Origin: an uncultured Elusimicrobia bacterium | Lineage (GTDB): Bacteria; Elusimicrobiota; Elusimicrobia; Elusimicrobiales; UBA9959 | Direction of reading: 5' to 3' | NCBI GenBank assembly: GCA_903889965.1 | Contig: CAISZM010000007.1 | Location: forward strand, 1 to 34,895 | Length of the DNA: 34,895 bases | Notes under the pieces: model-generated | The model's database searches: none | What the model saw: only the letters and a program-made list of their open reading frames with translations | Told to the model about the DNA's origin: nothing | Shown: one piece after another, positions 1 through 6,492 of the stretch | How the letters are laid out: the number at the start of each line of letters is the position of its first letter | Position numbering within the stretch: the stretch's first letter is position 1 | Made by a program: the position numbers and the translations under genes

Positions 1-63
1 GCCCAAATAAAAAGGCCGTCGCTTTTCAGCGACAGCCTAAATATATGCGCGGGAAGGGAGTTG
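1..63. repeat. 63-bp direct repeat, copy 1 (tRNA-Leu 3' end plus terminator)
   Basis: Bases 1-63 are identical to 190-252 (offset 189) and may extend past the window start. The unit holds the last 17 nt of tRNA-Leu followed by its terminator on the minus strand. The first mismatch is at 64/253, inside the T-loop, so only the tRNA 3' end and its downstream sequence were duplicated. Confidence 0.9.
5..37 (-). terminator. duplicated copy of the tRNA-Leu terminator
   Basis: This is identical to the terminator at 194-226 and sits downstream, on the minus strand, of the tRNA-mimic element at 47-191. An element transcript reading past the first terminator would therefore end here. It is part of a 63-bp exact direct repeat. 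Confidence 0.8.
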
Positions 64-191
64 GCCACAACTCCGTTCGCGGCCGCCGCCGCTCACGGGT
101 CGCGGCCCCGGCTCCCTCGTCCGCCTGCTGGCTCCCTCAGTCCGCCTTTCAACTCCCTCCGCGGGACAAATTGTTGTCCCGCTTCCCGCGC
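47..191 (-). repeat. tRNA-mimic element A, linked to tRNA-Leu
   Basis: A 145-nt element on the minus strand. Its 3' end (plus 47-63) is an exact copy of the last 17 nt of tRNA-Leu. Its 5' end (plus 182-191) is the perfect reverse complement of the last 10 nt, forming a 10-bp terminal stem, GCGCGGGAAG/CTTCCCGCGC. The antisense copy resumes after a 22-nt hairpin (161-182) with CAACTCC at 150-156, which pairs with GGAGTTG at 57-63. The GC-rich core (about 64-149) resembles the core of element B. It could be a small mobile element targeting tRNA 3' ends or a structured RNA co-transcribed with the tRNA. I recognise no family for it. Confidence 0.75.
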
Positions 192-252
192 CCAAATAAA
201 AAGGCCGTCGCTTTTCAGCGACAGCCTAAATATATGCGCGGGAAGGGAGTTG
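190..252. repeat. 63-bp direct repeat, copy 2 (in the functional tRNA-Leu)
   Basis: This is the partner of the repeat at 1-63. This copy belongs to the intact tRNA-Leu and its terminator. The two copies flank the unique part of the tRNA-mimic element at 64-189. Confidence 0.9.
194..226 (-). terminator. rho-independent terminator of tRNA-Leu
   Basis: On the minus strand a 9-bp stem, GGCTGTCGC/GCGACGGCC with one G-U pair, has a 6-nt loop (TGAAAA) and is followed by a run of T. It begins ten bases after the tRNA-Leu 3' end. An identical copy lies exactly 189 bp away at 5-37. Confidence 0.85.
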
Positions 253-318
253 AACCCATAAGACCTTTCGGTCACACGGTCCTGAGCCGTGCGCGTCTGC
301 CAGTTCCGCCACCCGCGC
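236..318 (-). tRNA. tRNA-Leu (anticodon CAG)
   Basis: An 83-nt class II tRNA on the minus strand. The 7-bp acceptor stem GCGCGGG/CCCGCGC is perfect. The anticodon loop CTCAGGA is closed by CACGG/CCGTG and gives anticodon CAG. A long variable arm is present, as expected for leucine, and the T-arm carries GTTCAA. CCA is not encoded. It reads a common leucine codon (CUG). A TATAAT on the minus strand (plus-strand 368-373) may be its own promoter, or it may be co-transcribed from tRNA-Tyr. Its 3' end is followed by a terminator and then by a structured element that copies this tRNA's 3' end. Confidence 0.96.
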
Positions 319-334
319 ATTAAAACCTGAAACC

Positions 335-374
335 GCGAGCCCTGCCGGCCCGCTTTTCAACAGTCGTATTATAT
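335..374 (-). repeat. partial third copy of the tRNA-mimic element
   Basis: A 7-bp hairpin at 335-353, followed by TTTTCAACAGTCG and an AT-rich stretch, resembles the 5' end of element B plus its flank (490-535). Only the 5' portion remains, ending close to the tRNA-Leu 5' end at 318. It may be a decayed element, or a leader structure for tRNA-Leu, because TATAAT on the minus strand (368-373) falls inside it. Confidence 0.4.
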
Positions 375-520
375 GGTTGGGGAAGGATTCGGTCACAGCT
401 CCAGCCCTCGCCGTCGCTCGGCCTGGGTCGCGACCCCGGCTCGCCGCTGCGGCCTACTGGCCTCGCGGCTGCGCCTTTCGAATCCTCGCGCGAGCCAAAC
501 TGTTGGCTCGCTTCTCAACC
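375..520 (-). repeat. tRNA-mimic element B, linked to tRNA-Tyr
   Basis: A 146-nt element with the same plan as element A but with ends matching tRNA-Tyr. Its 3' end (375-391) is an exact copy of the last 17 nt of tRNA-Tyr. Its 5' end (511-520 and 479-486) is the antisense of the same region, interrupted by a 22-nt hairpin at 490-511. The core shares blocks with element A, such as GAAAGGCG and CGCGACCC on the minus strand. It lies directly downstream of tRNA-Tyr, separated by an AT-rich spacer. No terminator is duplicated with it, unlike element A. Confidence 0.75.
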
Positions 521-535
521 GTCAGTTATATATAT

Positions 536-618
536 GGTTGGGGAAGGATTCGAACCTTCGTAGGGCGTAGCCCGACGGTTTTACAGACCGTTGCTTTTGA
601 CCGCTCAGCCACCCAACC
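536..618 (-). tRNA. tRNA-Tyr (anticodon GTA)
   Basis: An 83-nt class II tRNA on the minus strand. The acceptor stem is GGTTGGG/CCCAACC, the anticodon loop CTGTAAA (anticodon GTA) is closed by ACGGT/ACCGT, and there is a long variable arm as in bacterial tRNA-Tyr. The T-arm is GAAGG-TTCGAAT-CCTTC. CCA is not encoded. An extended -10 (TGCTACAAT on the minus strand, hexamer at plus-strand 655-660) lies about 37 nt upstream. Immediately downstream is a tRNA-linked structured element. Confidence 0.96.
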
Positions 619-777: not shown

Positions 778-1038
778 ATGTGTCTTGCCGTTCCCGGTAA
801 AATAATCTCTATTGAAAACAATAACGCCCAGGTAGATTTCAGCGGCGTTAAAAGGGCGGTTTCGCTGGACCTGGTCCCTGGCGCCGGGAAAAACGATTTC
901 GTGCTGGTTCACGCAGGTTTTGCCATACAGGTGCTGGACCCGGCGGAGGCGGAGGAGACGCTGAAACTATTTCGCGAGATATACGGCCGCGAACACGGCG
1001 ACGCCGGTTCCGGACCGCTTTCCCATAAAAAGCCATGA
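778..1038 (+). CDS. hypC: HypC, [NiFe]-hydrogenase maturation chaperone
   Basis: HypC is a small chaperone that works with HypD to assemble and deliver the Fe(CN)2CO unit to the hydrogenase large subunit. The 86-residue protein begins MCLAVPGK, the invariant HypC N-terminus in which Cys2 contacts HypD and the apo-hydrogenase after Met removal. Length is typical (75-95 aa). A GGAGG ribosome site precedes the ATG. The last four bases overlap the start of hypD. The last 15 or so residues (after about residue 70) are beyond the conserved fold and look unstructured. Confidence 0.95.
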   Translation: MCLAVPGKIISIENNNAQVDFSGVKRAVSLDLVPGAGKNDFVLVHAGFAIQVLDPAEAEETLKLFREIYGREHGDAGSGPLSHKKP

Positions 1039-2165
1039 AGAAAAATTCCGACGCGGCGCGCTTCTCCTCCCCGCTCTGGCGGGACCGGGCTCTTGCGTCC
1101 TCGGCCTTTTCGGAGATGCAAAAGCTTTGCGCCGCGGCTGTGTCCAAAGCCGGCGGCGAGATAGCCTTTATGGAGGTATGCGGTACTCATACCATGGCCA
1201 TAGCGGCCAGCGGCATGCGCCGCCTGTTCCCGAAAGGGCTCCGCATGCTCTCCGGCCCGGGCTGCCCGGTCTGCGTAACCTCGCAGGGGGATATAGACCG
1301 CGTTCTGGCCCTCGCCCGCGTGCCCGGGGTCATAATCGCAACTTTCGGGGATATGATGAAGGTGAAAGGCTCGAAGGGCCTGGACTTGAACTCCATGAGG
1401 GAGCGGGGCGCCGACGTGCGGGTCGTTTATTCTCCGCTGGATGCCGTGGCGCTGGCCCAGGCGAATACCGGGCGGGAGGTCGTTTTCATAGGCGTGGGTT
1501 TTGAGACGACCGCGCCTGTCATAGCCGGCTCGGTCATTAGGGCTAAAAAGGCCGGCGTCAGGAATTTTTCCTCAACGTCCTTCTTTAAACTGGTGCCTCC
1601 GGCGCTTGAAGTCCTGCTTTCCGACCCCGGCAATAAAATTTCAGGCTTCATGCTGCCGGGCCATGTGAGCGCCATTATCGGGCTGGGCCCGTACCGTTTT
1701 GCGGCGGAAAAATACCGCGTTCCCTGCGTGGTAACAGGTTTCGAGCCGCTCGATATCCTCGCCGGCATAAACATGCTTCTTAAACAGGTCGTTTCCGGCC
1801 GGCCAGCGGTGGAGGATGAGTATTTCCGGGCCGTGCCGAGCGGGGGGAACCCGGCCGCGCTCAAGCTTATAAAGGAAGTGTTCACCGTTTCGGACGCTTC
1901 CTGGAGGGCCATAGGCGTGCTAAAAGGCTCCGGCCTCGCTTTCTCAAAGGCCTACGCCGCCTTCGACGCCGTGAAGCGCTTCAATATCCCGTATTCGGAC
2001 GCGCCGGAGCCGGCGGGCTGCTTATGCGGGAAAATATTGATGGGTAAGTCGCTTCCCCCTGAATGCAGGCTTTTCGGGAAAGCCTGCACCCCGTCTTCCG
2101 CCGTGGGGCCCTGCATGGTTTCTTCGGAGGGAGCCTGCGCGGCCTGGTTCAAGTACGGGGGATGA
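1035..2165 (+). CDS. hypD: HypD, hydrogenase maturation Fe-S protein
   Basis: HypD is the iron-sulfur scaffold on which the Fe(CN)2CO group is built with HypC and HypE. The 376 residues fit the family. Signature motifs are present: CGTHTMAI starting at Cys49, and GPGCPVC with Cys77 and Cys80. A C-terminal cysteine cluster (CLCGKILMGK and later Cys residues) should bind the [4Fe-4S] cluster. The start overlaps the hypC stop as ATGA, indicating translational coupling. Downstream a 70-base gap leads to an embedded LysR-type regulator. Confidence 0.96.
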   Translation: MKKNSDAARFSSPLWRDRALASSAFSEMQKLCAAAVSKAGGEIAFMEVCGTHTMAIAASGMRRLFPKGLRMLSGPGCPVCVTSQGDIDRVLALARVPGVIIATFGDMMKVKGSKGLDLNSMRERGADVRVVYSPLDAVALAQANTGREVVFIGVGFETTAPVIAGSVIRAKKAGVRNFSSTSFFKLVPPALEVLLSDPGNKISGFMLPGHVSAIIGLGPYRFAAEKYRVPCVVTGFEPLDILAGINMLLKQVVSGRPAVEDEYFRAVPSGGNPAALKLIKEVFTVSDASWRAIGVLKGSGLAFSKAYAAFDAVKRFNIPYSDAPEPAGCLCGKILMGKSLPPECRLFGKACTPSSAVGPCMVSSEGACAAWFKYGG

Positions 2166-2235
2166 ACGGACAACTTGCATCGGGCAACCGGGCGGAGCCC
2201 CCGGTCCATGCGCCTTACGCGCTCCGGGTATATTT

Positions 2236-3147
2236 ATGAACATAGAAACTCTTAAGGTTTTCCGGGATCTTTCCGATACCGGCAGTTTTTCCAAGACCGC
2301 GGAACTTAACTACATTTCCCAGTCCGCGGTGAGCCAGCAGATAAAGAAGCTGGAACTGGTCCTCAAGTGCAAACTTTACCACCGCCAGGCCGGGAAAATA
2401 CTGTTAACCGGGTGCGGAAAAAAATTCTACGAGGCTTCCCGCCGGATAGCCGTGCTCTACGACGACACGATAAGGTCCGTGCGCGCCCTTGGCGCCGAGA
2501 AGCCCGCCGAGGAAATAAAGATATCCACCATCTACAGCGCCGGCATTTATATCATCCAGAACTACATCAAGCAGTTCCTCTCCAGGAACCCGGGCACGAA
2601 GATAAGCGTGGAATATCGCCAGTTCTCGCAGATATATTCTGATATCTCCTCCGGCCGCGCCGATTTCGGTTTCATGGCCTGCCCGTACCGCAAATCATCG
2701 GGTCTTAAAATGGTGCCGGTAGCCAGGGACGAGATGGTCCTGATAGCGGGGACGCTCTCCCCGCTGGCCGGGCGCAGGAGCGTGAACGTGGGGGAGCTCG
2801 AGGGCCTCGATTTCATATTTTTCGACAAGGTCTTCCCGTCGCGGCGCTACATAGACGCTTTTCTGAGGCGTCACGGCGTCAAAGTGCGCGTTAAAATGGA
2901 ACTGGACAATATCGAGACCATCAAGACCGCCGTCGCCTCCGGAGCCGGGGTTTCTATATTGCCGCGCACCGCCGTCCGCGAGGACGAGAACGGGGTCAGC
3001 CTGCACGTGATGAGGATCTCCGACGCGCCGTTTCTGCGCCCGATATACCTTATACACAGCCGCTCGCGCGCGCTTTCCCCGGCTGCCAGGAATTTCATGG
3101 GGATCTTCGAAAAGCCGCGCAAGATCGCGGCGGGGAGGGAAGCATGA
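2236..3147 (+). CDS. LysR-family transcriptional regulator inside the hyp operon
   Basis: A 303-residue LysR-type regulator. It has an N-terminal winged helix-turn-helix (about residues 1-60, with SFSKTAELNYISQSAVSQQI) and a periplasmic-binding-like effector domain (about 90-295). It lies between hypD and hypE in the same direction, and its stop overlaps the hypE start as ATGA, so it is part of the operon rather than divergent as most LysR genes are. It may sense a metabolite and autoregulate hydrogenase maturation. The effector cannot be told from sequence. CysB/CysL-like subfamilies are alternatives. Confidence 0.92.
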   Translation: MNIETLKVFRDLSDTGSFSKTAELNYISQSAVSQQIKKLELVLKCKLYHRQAGKILLTGCGKKFYEASRRIAVLYDDTIRSVRALGAEKPAEEIKISTIYSAGIYIIQNYIKQFLSRNPGTKISVEYRQFSQIYSDISSGRADFGFMACPYRKSSGLKMVPVARDEMVLIAGTLSPLAGRRSVNVGELEGLDFIFFDKVFPSRRYIDAFLRRHGVKVRVKMELDNIETIKTAVASGAGVSILPRTAVREDENGVSLHVMRISDAPFLRPIYLIHSRSRALSPAARNFMGIFEKPRKIAAGREA

Positions 3148-4154
3148 CCGGTCCCGGCAAAGTGCTTCTGGGCCACGGCAGCGGAGGCCGCCTGAGCCGC
3201 GAGCTGGTGGAAAAAGTTTTTCTCAGGAGTTTTTCAAACCCGGCCCTGCGGCCGCTTGAGGACGCCGCCGAGATCACGGTCGGCGGGGCCTCGCTGGCTT
3301 TTACCACCGATTCCTACGTGGTTACCCCCGTGGAATTTCCCGGCGCCGACATAGGGCGCGTCGCGGTCTGCGGCACGGTCAACGACCTGGCCGTCAAAGG
3401 CGCGAGGCCGGCCGCGCTGTCCGCCGGTTTCATACTGGAGGAGGGGTTCCCGATGGAACTCCTTTTGCGCATAACGTCTTCCATGCGCCGCGCCGCCGCC
3501 GAGGCTGGCGTATCCATCGTGACCGGGGACACCAAGGTCGTTGAAAAAGGGAAAGCAGACGGGATATTCATAAACACCGCGGGCGTGGGCCTTATACCGC
3601 CGGGGCGCCGTCTAGCCTCAGCCGCGGTGAAGGCCGGCGACGTAGTCATAGTGAGCGGCCGCCTGGCCGACCACGGCGTTGCGGTCATGAACGCGCGCAA
3701 CAGGCTGGGTCTGGAAGGCGGGATCAGGAGCGACGCCGCTCCGCTTAACGCCATGATCGAGGCCGCGCTGCGCGTCCCGGGGGTGCGCTGCATGCGCGAT
3801 ATAACCCGCGGCGGTCTTGCCACGGTTCTTAACGAGGTTTCCGGCGCCTGCGGCCTGGGCGCCGAAATTGACGAGGATTCCGTCCCCGTCGCGCCGGCCA
3901 CCAGGAAAGCCTGCGCGCTGCTCGGCCTGGACCCGTTCTACGTGGCGAACGAAGGCAAGATAGCCCTGTTCGCCGCTCCCGGTTCAGCGGAAAAGATATT
4001 AAAGGCGCTGCGCTCGAACCGGTACGGCCGCCGGGCCGCCTTGGTGGGCCGTATGGTAAAAGAGGCCAGGCCGAGGGTGCGCCTTCAGACCTCGATAGGC
4101 GGCGCGCGGATCATGCTGTCGCTGGAAGGGGAGCAGCTCCCCAGGATATGCTGA
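3144..4154 (+). CDS. hypE: HypE, hydrogenase maturation carbamoyl dehydratase
   Basis: HypE uses ATP to convert the thiocarbamoyl group on its C-terminal cysteine, received from HypF, into a thiocyanate that supplies the cyanide ligands. The 336-residue protein has the GHGSGG N-terminal motif, the PurM-like ATP-binding core (TTDSYVVTP; VNDLAVKGARP) and ends exactly in PRIC, the catalytic C-terminal cysteine signature. Length is standard. It overlaps the preceding lysR by four bases and is followed after 28 bases by hypF. Confidence 0.96.
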   Translation: MTGPGKVLLGHGSGGRLSRELVEKVFLRSFSNPALRPLEDAAEITVGGASLAFTTDSYVVTPVEFPGADIGRVAVCGTVNDLAVKGARPAALSAGFILEEGFPMELLLRITSSMRRAAAEAGVSIVTGDTKVVEKGKADGIFINTAGVGLIPPGRRLASAAVKAGDVVIVSGRLADHGVAVMNARNRLGLEGGIRSDAAPLNAMIEAALRVPGVRCMRDITRGGLATVLNEVSGACGLGAEIDEDSVPVAPATRKACALLGLDPFYVANEGKIALFAAPGSAEKILKALRSNRYGRRAALVGRMVKEARPRVRLQTSIGGARIMLSLEGEQLPRIC

Positions 4155-4182
4155 CCGCCAGGGCGCCGTACTGATTTCCGCT

Positions 4183-6492
4183 ATGGTAAGGAAAAAAATA
4201 TTAATAAAAGGCGTAGTGCAGGGCGTAGGCTTCAGGCCGCATATCTACAAGCTCGCCCGCGCACATTCCCTGGCGGGCTGGGTCAGGAACGACGCCTCGG
4301 GGGTTACGGTTGAGGCCGAGGGCCCGGCTCCCGGACTTGCGGCTTTTATCCGGGATATCAGCCGCCTGAAACCGCCGGCCTCCCGGGTGGATTCGGTTTG
4401 CGTATCCGCAGTGCGGGCCTCGGGTGGAAAGGATTTTTCAATAGTCAAAAGCGGCGGCGCCGCGCCGGCTGCTGCCATGATCCCCGCCGACCTGGCCCTT
4501 TGCACGGACTGCCGGCGCGAACTGCTTGACCCAGCGGACAGGCGTTATCTCTACCCCTTTACTAACTGCACCAACTGCGGGCCGCGTTTTACCATAGTGA
4601 AAAGCGTGCCCTACGACAGGCCCGCCACTACCATGTCGGGGTTTAAGATGTGCCCCGACTGCCTGAAGGAATACGGGGACCCGCTGGACCGCCGTTTCCA
4701 CGCACAGCCGAACGCCTGCCCCGCCTGCGGGCCCTCGATCGCGCTGTCCGCCGGCGGAAGGACTTTTACCGGCCGCGGCGCGCTGGAAAAAACAGCCGGC
4801 CTGCTGCTCTCAGGGCGCGTGGGCGCCCTCCAGGGGATCGGAGGTTTTCACCTGGCCTGCCGGGCCGACGTCTTGGCGCCGATCAAGAAACTCAGGCTGG
4901 CAAAGCGCCGGCCGCATAAACCTTTCGCGCTGATGTTCCCTTCGCTGCGCGCCGCGCGGGAAGTGTGCCGAGTCTCCGCGGCCGAAGCCGCCGCGCTGAC
5001 TTCCCCGGAAGCGCCGGTAGTCATGCTGCGAAGGCGCTCAGGCGTTTTCGAGGCGGCTGCCCCGGGCCTCTCAAGGCTGGGAATTATGCTGCCCTACACG
5101 CCGCTCCACGCGGCGCTGTTCGCCGTCCTGGCCGCCAAGGGCTATGCCGGTCCCCTGGTCATGACGTCCGGTAATTTCCGGGACGAGCCCATCTGCAAGG
5201 ACGTCTCCGAGGCCGCTTTGCGCCTTTCCGGCGCGGCCTCTTTTGTGCTTTCCCATGACAGGCCGGTGCATAACCGGGCGGACGACAGCGTGGTTTTCGA
5301 GGCGGCCGGGAGCATACGTCTTGCCCGGCGGGCCAGGGGTTTCGTTCCGTCGGCCGTAAAGCTCGCCTCAGGGGGCAAACCAGTGCTTGCCTGCGGGGCG
5401 GACCTGAAGAACTCCTTCTGCCTGACACGCGGCAGGGAGGCTTTTATGTCCCAGCACATAGGGGACCTCTCGGAGCCGCTGAACCAGGAATTTATGACGG
5501 AGACGCTTTCCAATCTCCGCAGGCTGCTTAAAGTATCTCCGTCGGTTACGGTCTGCGATCTACACCCGGACTACGCCTCCTCGGCGCTTGCGCGCTCGCT
5601 GCCGGGCAGGAAGTTCGCGGTGCAGCACCACGCCGCCCACGCCGCCAGCGTGGCGGCGGAACACGGCCTCACGGGACCTTTCGCCGGCATATCTTACGAT
5701 GGGACCGGTTACGGTTCCGACGGGAAAATATGGGGTTCCGAATTCCTGGTTTTCGCCGACGGCTCATGGCGGCGGGCCGGGCATATTAAATATTTCCCGC
5801 TGCCCGGGGGGGATATCGGGGCTCTGGAGATATGGCGCCCGGCCCTGGCGCTGATAAAGGATGCCTTCGGCCGGGGCTGGCGGGTACAGTCCGGGAACCT
5901 GTTCGATAAGGTCTCGGCCAAAGACCTCTCCTCCGTGGAGCGGATGATAGAGACGGGCCTCAATTGCCCTATGACCTCCAGCATGGGCAGGCTGTTCGAC
6001 GCTTTCAGCTTTATTGCCGGATTGCGCGACGAGGCCACTTATGAGGCCCAGGGACCTATGGAGATGGAGAGTTCCCTTTCCGGCCGGAAAATATCCGGTG
6101 CTTACCGTTTTTGCCTCGACATGGCGGGTGATGTATTCGAAATAGACCCCGCCCCCGCGGTAAAGGCGGCCGTGGCGGACCGGCTTGCCGGCCGGGAGGC
6201 GGCCTTTATTTCTGCCCGGCTGCACCGCGGCCTGGCCAAAATTACCGTGGAGGCGGCTTCAGCCGTTTCCGTTAAAACCGGTATAAAGACCTTCTGCCTG
6301 TCCGGAGGGGTTTTTCAGAACCGGGTACTGCTTGAACTGGTGACCGAGGGATTGGAAAGGCGCGGTTTCAGCGTCTATTCAAATAAGCTTGTTCCGTCCA
6401 ACGACGGCGGCATAGCGCTCGGACAGGCCTGGTGCGCCCTGAAAGGCTGGCGCGAAGCCGGATCATCTGAAGGTGGGGGCGGTAAGGCATGA
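4183..6492 (+). CDS. hypF: HypF, carbamoyltransferase of hydrogenase maturation
   Basis: HypF transfers the carbamoyl group of carbamoyl phosphate, via carbamoyl-AMP, to the HypE C-terminal cysteine. Domains occur in the usual order over 769 residues. The acylphosphatase domain (about 1-90) has GVVQGVGFRPH. Two zinc-finger pairs follow, with Cys107/110/129/132 and Cys157/160/179/182. Then come a YrdC-like domain (about 200-380) and a Kae1/TobZ-like domain (about 390-760) with metal-binding His482, His483 and His486. The stop overlaps the next gene as ATGA. No Shine-Dalgarno is evident before the ATG. Confidence 0.96.
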   Translation: MVRKKILIKGVVQGVGFRPHIYKLARAHSLAGWVRNDASGVTVEAEGPAPGLAAFIRDISRLKPPASRVDSVCVSAVRASGGKDFSIVKSGGAAPAAAMIPADLALCTDCRRELLDPADRRYLYPFTNCTNCGPRFTIVKSVPYDRPATTMSGFKMCPDCLKEYGDPLDRRFHAQPNACPACGPSIALSAGGRTFTGRGALEKTAGLLLSGRVGALQGIGGFHLACRADVLAPIKKLRLAKRRPHKPFALMFPSLRAAREVCRVSAAEAAALTSPEAPVVMLRRRSGVFEAAAPGLSRLGIMLPYTPLHAALFAVLAAKGYAGPLVMTSGNFRDEPICKDVSEAALRLSGAASFVLSHDRPVHNRADDSVVFEAAGSIRLARRARGFVPSAVKLASGGKPVLACGADLKNSFCLTRGREAFMSQHIGDLSEPLNQEFMTETLSNLRRLLKVSPSVTVCDLHPDYASSALARSLPGRKFAVQHHAAHAASVAAEHGLTGPFAGISYDGTGYGSDGKIWGSEFLVFADGSWRRAGHIKYFPLPGGDIGALEIWRPALALIKDAFGRGWRVQSGNLFDKVSAKDLSSVERMIETGLNCPMTSSMGRLFDAFSFIAGLRDEATYEAQGPMEMESSLSGRKISGAYRFCLDMAGDVFEIDPAPAVKAAVADRLAGREAAFISARLHRGLAKITVEAASAVSVKTGIKTFCLSGGVFQNRVLLELVTEGLERRGFSVYSNKLVPSNDGGIALGQAWCALKGWREAGSSEGGGGKA

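Follow-up and report, generated by a model that had tools for sequence, protein, structure and literature searches.

Near the left end of the window (by which we mean the whole stretch of 34,895 nt analysed here) two tRNA genes are each followed by a short element of which one end resembles the 3′ end of the neighbouring tRNA and the other end its reverse complement. The question raised by this locus is how both ends of an element can come to fit whichever tRNA it lies behind. The window is the whole of contig C7 in a 2.24 Mb assembly of 87 contigs from an uncultured Elusimicrobia bacterium (the source genome) and, beyond the tRNAs, contains a row of genes at 779–6492 which we take to resemble those of hydrogenase maturation factors. 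At the gathering threshold Rfam identifies only tRNA in the window and only tRNA or tmRNA in 12 further loci; weak matches below this threshold in eight loci were taken as chance.

As shown in Table 1, both elements read on the minus strand, which is the direction of their tRNAs. A first-pass annotation had described the two as alike in length, plan and core, and this description is accurate: 96 of 147 aligned columns are identical and the folding plan is common to both, with z-scores against shuffled sequences of −7.05 and −5.01. Each element starts with an antisense copy of the 3′ end of the host tRNA, split by a 9 bp hairpin (P2), continues through a core with two arms (P4 and P5) and finishes with a sense copy of the same tRNA end; P1 and P3 are formed where the antisense copy at the 5′ end pairs with the sense copy at the 3′ end. 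The split antisense end had also been noted in that annotation and is present in both elements, although its acceptor part is imperfect behind tRNA-Tyr. The 3′ end had been described as the last 17 nt of the tRNA; it is indeed a copy, but of 18 nt starting at C56, and it may extend past the tRNA. The direct repeat at the Leu locus is perfect over 63 nt and includes a terminator-like hairpin, and that at the Tyr locus is perfect over 22 nt (370–391 and 531–552) and contains the sense copy. We note that tRNA-Leu scores only 47.4 bits and shows a mismatch in the T stem on inspection by eye, as would result from an exchange of its 3′ part. Contigs C7, C57, C62 and C37 of the source genome end within a few hundred bases of elements, so the copies in this genome are probably under-counted; a segment of C57 (226–307) may continue the left edge of the window.

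Table 1. Coordinates of the tRNA genes, the elements behind them and the direct repeat at the left end of the window.
Feature	Position	Strand	Remark
tRNA-Tyr(GTA)	535..618	-	Host of second element
tRNA-Leu(CAG)	235..318	-	Host of first element
Element behind tRNA-Tyr	374..520	-	Model R2, 150.4 bits
Tyr element, P1 5′ strand	512..520	-	Antisense to tRNA-Tyr acceptor 3′ strand, imperfect
Tyr element, P2 hairpin	490..511	-	Splits the antisense copy
Tyr element, P3 5′ strand	479..486	-	Antisense to tRNA-Tyr C56-63, 8/8
Tyr element, core with arms P4 and P5	392..478	-	Fold, alignment, covariation
Tyr element, sense copy	374..391	-	tRNA-Tyr C56 to discriminator, 18/18
Element behind tRNA-Leu	46..191	-	Model R2, 127 bits
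Leu element, P1 5′ strand	184..191	-	Antisense to tRNA-Leu acceptor 3′ strand
Leu element, P2 hairpin	161..182	-	Fold
Leu element, P3 5′ strand	150..158	-	Antisense to tRNA-Leu C56-63
Leu element, core with arms P4 and P5	64..149	-	Fold, alignment
Leu element, sense copy	46..63	-	tRNA-Leu C56 to discriminator, 18/18
63 nt direct repeat, left copy (tRNA sense)	190..252	-	tRNA-Leu 3′ end and terminator-like hairpin
63 nt direct repeat, right copy	1..63	-	Contig ends here

A covariance model built from 25 copies (R2) finds five strong copies of this tRNA-bound type in the source genome (E = 2e-22 or better), together with three weaker matches at sites of a sister type (type B, described below) and one at E = 0.7. 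Apart from the two in the window, copies of this genome lie behind tRNA-Ser(GGA) (L003), tRNA-Val(CAC) (L005) and an RNA-like stretch with a Ser-like end (L004), and a copy behind tRNA-Gln(CTG) (L008) is broken by an insertion. Further copies beside other tRNAs, which the first-pass annotation expected of a family that rewrites its ends, are plentiful, with hundreds of matches in relatives. At E ≤ 0.001, R2 matches 103 of 121 genomes (the source genome included) and 17 of 19 genera; across a sample of the phylum at E ≤ 1e-5 it matches 111 of 294 genomes, 106 of which belong to the same order and five to four other families. The observation in the window, as these numbers and the five strong copies indicate, is not due to chance. 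From 80 fetched regions, scans of 63 and 80 loci gave 190 matches, of which 138 distinct copies of at least 120 nt were retained; these measure 123–204 nt. A tRNA lies upstream on the same strand within 320 nt of 113 of them, with 19 anticodon types represented, while the remaining 25 are near contig ends, behind inserts or an RNA-like stretch, inverted or without an explanation. In five loci (L004, L053, L055, L133 and L148) an alike stretch of about 75 nt (cctcggg.tgttgcgc.aagta) replaces the tRNA upstream of the element. It has a near-CCA end in most of these loci and gives no Rfam match; tmRNA was considered and rejected as its identity, because the strong tmRNA match of the source genome is on another contig.

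The ends of the elements follow the neighbouring tRNA. Over the 113 copies with a host, the sense copy agrees with positions C56–N73 of its own tRNA at a mean of 15.5 of 18 positions, compared with 9.9 for tRNAs of other isotypes; it is perfect in 61 copies, and in 85 the own tRNA is a better match than all other isotypes. The antisense ends are likewise conserved in relatives: positions 56–63 are matched 8/8 in 98 of the 113 (mean 7.8, compared with 6.1 for other isotypes), and the acceptor part is matched at a mean of 6.5 of 8 positions (4.5 for other isotypes). The claim that both ends are rewritten to suit each tRNA is also supported by a stricter comparison of 44 pairs, drawn from 36 elements, with cores at least 90% identical and different host tRNAs. 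With anchors set blind to the tRNA, comparison of the fit to the own tRNA with that to the partner's gave 67 better, 15 tied and none worse for the sense end, 54, one and none for the antisense T part and 83, one and one for the antisense acceptor part, comparisons which are not independent events since the pairs have elements in common. An earlier count in which the anchors favoured the own tRNA gave 354 to 3, 103 to 1 and 269 to 16 positions. Near-identical cores behind different tRNAs therefore have locally fitting ends. One genome (G016) has Gln and Met copies with 97% of the core in common that differ in P1, P2 and P3, and Arg(TCG) copies with alike flanks in two genomes (G015 and G005) have identical cores and different, compensated P2 stems.

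Each copy sits between the 3′ end of the host tRNA itself and a second sense copy of that end. The junctions were defined in 62 copies whose spacer was at most 70 nt long and whose sense copy matched at 16 or more of the 18 positions, and in all 62 the repeat starts exactly at C56. Its far end varies, lying 0–45 nt beyond position 73 (at least 3 nt in 41 and at least 8 nt in 23 of the 62). Among copies outside this filter the sense copy is truncated or has short deletions, such as the TTC missing in many Arg copies.

Species differ in what they carry at one orthologous locus. We compared the tRNA-Arg(CCG) locus beside a conserved ATPase gene, which is present in 29 of 32 genomes; 28 loci were examined, without one partial match, and 27 of them showed the tRNA. 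Of these 27, 13 carry the element, five carry only an inverted type B copy and nine carry neither in recognisable form, so that orthologous loci may have the element, lack it or have it replaced. Type B is a self-closed form of about 125–130 nt with fixed ends (5′ GTGAGG and 3′ CGTGAC). In the source genome an inverted type B copy (L008:1369–1493, contig C48) is nested within the element behind tRNA-Gln(CTG), where it separates P2 from P3. Part of the inheritance is nonetheless vertical: in 30 of 62 cases, where 6.8 would be expected, the closest core from a different genome lies behind a tRNA of the same anticodon. The core tree requires 58 host changes for 19 hosts against a mean of 82.8 after shuffling, a rough figure given the short core and weak tree.

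The family extends beyond the Elusimicrobiota. A scan of named genomes with a core pattern returned at least 80 loci, of which, besides those of Elusimicrobia, at least 30 have names that we read as Patescibacteria. Among the matches listed, R2 matches 30 of 30 Patescibacteria-named loci at E ≤ 0.01, a figure that is no prevalence because the loci were chosen by the core pattern. The scan loci gave 61 R2 matches; 17 were set aside as Elusimicrobia, and the other 44 are mainly Patescibacteria, some being named only as bacterium. Again among the matches listed, 37 of these 44 have a tRNA or tmRNA host within 320 nt, the sense copy is perfect in 11 of the 37 and agrees at a mean of 13.9 of 18 positions with its own host, compared with 10.1 for others, and the own host ranks first in 23 of the 37. 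The tracking of the host by the ends thus holds in Patescibacteria too, but less cleanly. Fifteen genomes of 0.6–1.4 Mb reached through Patescibacteria-type loci contain three to 19 R2 matches each (E ≤ 0.01), in a sample selected in that every genome was picked for holding one match. Elements also occur behind tmRNA genes (L242, L271, L295 and L316, all Patescibacteria-type loci), and in some copies of the Patescibacteria set (L307, L278 and L242) P2 appears by eye to be missing. The core, with its conserved letters, is one family in the two phyla. Two loci with clearly unrelated names among the matches listed (L284 and L287) gave no R2 match. An IMG/VR viral contig (L353:4504–4557) has an exact match to the core pattern, with no R2 match at E 0.01 and no tRNA, and this match is likely to be chance.

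In our view, these elements are somewhat more probably mobile than not: small non-coding units, mostly of 120–200 nt, that enter behind tRNA and tmRNA genes at C56, duplicate the 3′ end and acquire their antisense end by folding back. The first-pass annotation had wavered between a mobile element with a fold-back copying step and a structured RNA evolved with its tRNA; the gain, loss and replacement of copies and their nesting favour mobility, and the covariation described below shows that the folded strand matters as well. Entry would take place within the tRNA gene at U55|C56, and duplication of the target would leave an intact tRNA upstream, with which the host would survive. The antisense end would arise, as its geometry suggests, once the newly made strand has folded onto the copied tRNA 3′ end and used it as a template. 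Copying primed at the target, after which the new strand snaps back on its own primer, is one geometry that fits: the junction at C56 would be fixed, the far end would vary and one end would be inverted. The machinery would then recognise P2 and the core, and the enzyme may act in trans or may come and go. At the Ala loci L043 and L047 the tRNA end, terminator and antisense copy appear by eye to form one long inverted repeat, the kind of trace expected if fold-back copying had passed around a terminator hairpin. Several considerations weigh against the mobile reading, among them the partly vertical inheritance and the lack of a linked transposase or integrase in the searches made. In addition, gene conversion between resident copies could shift cores without transposition, the truncations and small deletions seen in many sense copies are not expected at birth from plain target duplication, and P2 is not accounted for by fold-back copying.

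In SINE-like target-primed retroposons, too, the first junction of the repeat is fixed and its far end varies, and reverse transcription would give the junctions that we observe. A match to the reverse transcriptase family PF00078 (RVT_1) was found in seven of the 24 genomes searched; the 17 without a match include the copy-rich G014, G022, G073, G308 and G312. A resident reverse transcriptase is therefore not general, in which the family differs from SINE-like elements, as it does in having a core that is not derived from tRNA as far as we have seen. In the searches made, no link to a transposase or integrase held up. It is possible, and we put this forward tentatively, that the elements represent a new class of bacterial mobile element in Elusimicrobiota and Patescibacteria, harmless within tRNA and tmRNA genes because the target duplication would rebuild the tRNA, and with both ends templated on the tRNA that was entered, so that the folded element would in every case be closed by sequence specific to its host tRNA.

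The main rival to a mobile element is a functional RNA, which we regard as the less probable reading: a structured RNA encoded in cis, co-transcribed with the tRNA and cut free, with a function in the host, its cores homogenised by gene conversion. Its function would lie in pairing with the tRNA 3′ end, or in resembling it, which would keep the ends in step with the tRNA; possible roles would include tRNA 3′ processing, turnover and stress signalling. The strong covariation speaks for such an RNA. In a MAFFT alignment of five copies from the source genome (A2), 25 of 52 predicted pairs are changed on both sides. In a second alignment (A4), 93.6% of cells pair and 37 of the 52 pairs are changed on both sides; the covariation is 0.495, compared with 0.154 after shuffling (reached in none of 500 shuffles) and 0.058–0.085 with slid partners. 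A4 was fitted to the structure in a way that favours covariation, but A2, which was not, agrees. The fold is thus kept by covariation. Conservation of the core in two phyla fits a functional RNA too, as does the small-RNA annotation carried by rttR of Escherichia coli. So does the antisense T part: among the 45 copies in which the exact match from C56 falls short of 14 nt, it is matched 8/8 in 44.

The base pairs bear on which strand is folded. G–U pairs outnumber A–C in P3 (32 to 9) and in P5 (205 to 5; two fixed positions account for 192 of these 205, one nearly invariant G–U pair being present in 124 of 137 copies), which suggests that the tRNA-sense strand is the one folding, either as RNA or as single-stranded DNA. 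P1 (46 G–U to 51 A–C) and P4 (23 to 20) lack this bias, which counts against a structured RNA; these two stems are uninformative as to the strand. The spacer between tRNA and element, assessed in 103 of the 113 copies (the rest having gaps of more than 70 nt or N), is similarly two-sided. It is at most 20 nt long in 61 copies and contains a terminator in none of them, so that co-transcription with the tRNA is plausible there, although the pattern requires at least 21 nt and has hardly any room; where the spacer is longer, a terminator-like hairpin precedes the element in 38 of 42 copies, which counts against this reading. The antisense acceptor part is perfect in 26 of the 42 copies with a longer spacer, compared with six of the 61 with a short one, a difference that, like the inverted repeats at the Ala loci, fold-back copying at a terminator hairpin would produce. 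The tRNA-Arg(CCG) loci described above that have no recognisable element, or type B in its place, also argue against a host function. Finally, a protective role for the sense copy, as a decoy that soaks up the antisense end so that the tRNA can fold, was considered and gains no support from equilibrium folding. In 36 copies the mean T-stem pairing is 0.83 for the tRNA alone, 0.19 with the element and 0.165 with the element lacking its sense copy, and in 22 others the values are 0.52, 0.11 and 0.11, respectively, in a folding model that ignores co-transcriptional and tertiary folding.

REPINs are short, dispersed, paired palindromes, and elements of that kind moved in trans by a Y1 transposase (RAYT) offer a further explanation, in which type B would be mobile and would have given rise to the tRNA-bound type. 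We consider this improbable. The short conserved ends of type B outside its hairpins do resemble those of REPINs, and 11 of 19 loci with the type B end pattern have no tRNA within the locus; the type B copy nested in a tRNA-bound copy also fits. The arms of P2 are almost perfectly complementary (1217 Watson–Crick, eight G–U, three A–C and four other cells over the 138 copies), the few G–U pairs being what correction of one arm by the other at the DNA level would also leave. Matches to Y1 genes were obtained in 24 of 41 genomes, but the source genome, G003, G016 and ten genomes of the f2 family (G040–G044 and G046–G050) hold copies without any such match. Moreover, for 30 of the 69 Y1 matches the locus yields no type B at E ≤ 10 with its model (R3), the only one used for this search. 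The family thus shows no Y1 link in the part tested, and its main type differs from REPINs in being tied to tRNAs and copying them.

It is very unlikely that the elements are scars of site-specific integrative elements that used the T arm of the tRNA as an attachment site, with the sense copy as the att repeat, and this explanation is already disfavoured. Integrative elements with tyrosine recombinases use the 3′ part of the tRNA from the T loop, where integrases commonly act, and the direct repeat that they leave behind makes the tRNA whole again. The repeat that we observe likewise runs from the T loop to the 3′ end and restores the tRNA. However, copies of 123–204 nt, commonly about 145 nt, are too small for an integrase gene and contain none, and neither a core common to all hosts nor an antisense end, let alone ends that fit each host tRNA, is predicted for att scars. 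An ORF resembling a tyrosine recombinase by eye lies upstream of one Gln-type copy (L061:1835–2869), and upstream of another there is a single-ORF insert of about 1.1 kb (L050:352–1460); both inserts separate the element from the tRNA, or from what is left of it, and so look like later insertions into the same tRNA. Equally remote is an origin by tandem duplication and template switching at palindromes behind tRNAs with no dedicated element, the likeness of the cores being due to convergence or conversion, for although tandem arrays of elements occur and long inverted repeats surround terminators, the copies have in common one core family with conserved letters that spans two phyla and passes nearly unchanged behind different tRNAs.

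The family was also compared with other known systems. Casposons, some of which insert at the 3′ end of a tRNA with a short target duplication, differ in being large, in carrying Cas1 and in having no antisense end. Integron attC sites have as hallmarks the core sites RYYYAAC/GTTRRRY and an integron integrase. Among the titles and abstract openings listed in literature searches, none names such tRNA-copying elements. The closest likeness is to the repeats at tyrT/tyrV of E. coli K-12 (rttR, rtT); rtT RNA is a stable RNA released from a tRNA transcript. These units are arranged in tandem behind tRNA-Tyr, with a sense copy of its 3′ end on the 3′ side and a 10 nt antisense copy on the 5′ side; the two copies are predicted to pair with each other, and the repeat extends beyond CCA. 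They differ from the family described here in having neither P2 nor a common core (the best R2 score is 8.2 bits, E = 0.16), in being confined to one locus and in a repeat that starts, by eye, at another T-loop base. We found no evidence of movement of these repeats. The layout is common to both, whereas Rfam and the application of R2 to the E. coli region give no membership of rtT by sequence or structure. As the E. coli units have the antisense and sense layout without the common core, we call the family new and its plan partly precedented. The first-pass annotation had not recognised the plan of an antisense end with a hairpin; for the antisense and sense layout the precedent existed in E. 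coli tyrT, but the hairpin is absent there.

If the favoured reading is correct, the target of this mobile element writes its ends, rather than the ends being carried along, and the tRNA 3′-end repeats of the E. coli tyrT type could be explained as one case of a wider process. This raises the question of the enzyme that cuts a tRNA gene, or copies it, at C56. Being easy to recognise, the elements can also serve as markers with which to follow gain, loss and transfer among tRNA genes in two phyla that are poorly cultured. With regard to the E. coli units themselves, the whole 171 nt of rttR folds at chance level (z = −1.06), and the parts between copies have z-scores of −3.07 and −3.83. We also note that the motif GGAGCGAAGCGAC recurs in or beside four elements (L039, L053, L055 and L170) and is present in the tyrT–tyrV spacer of E. 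coli.
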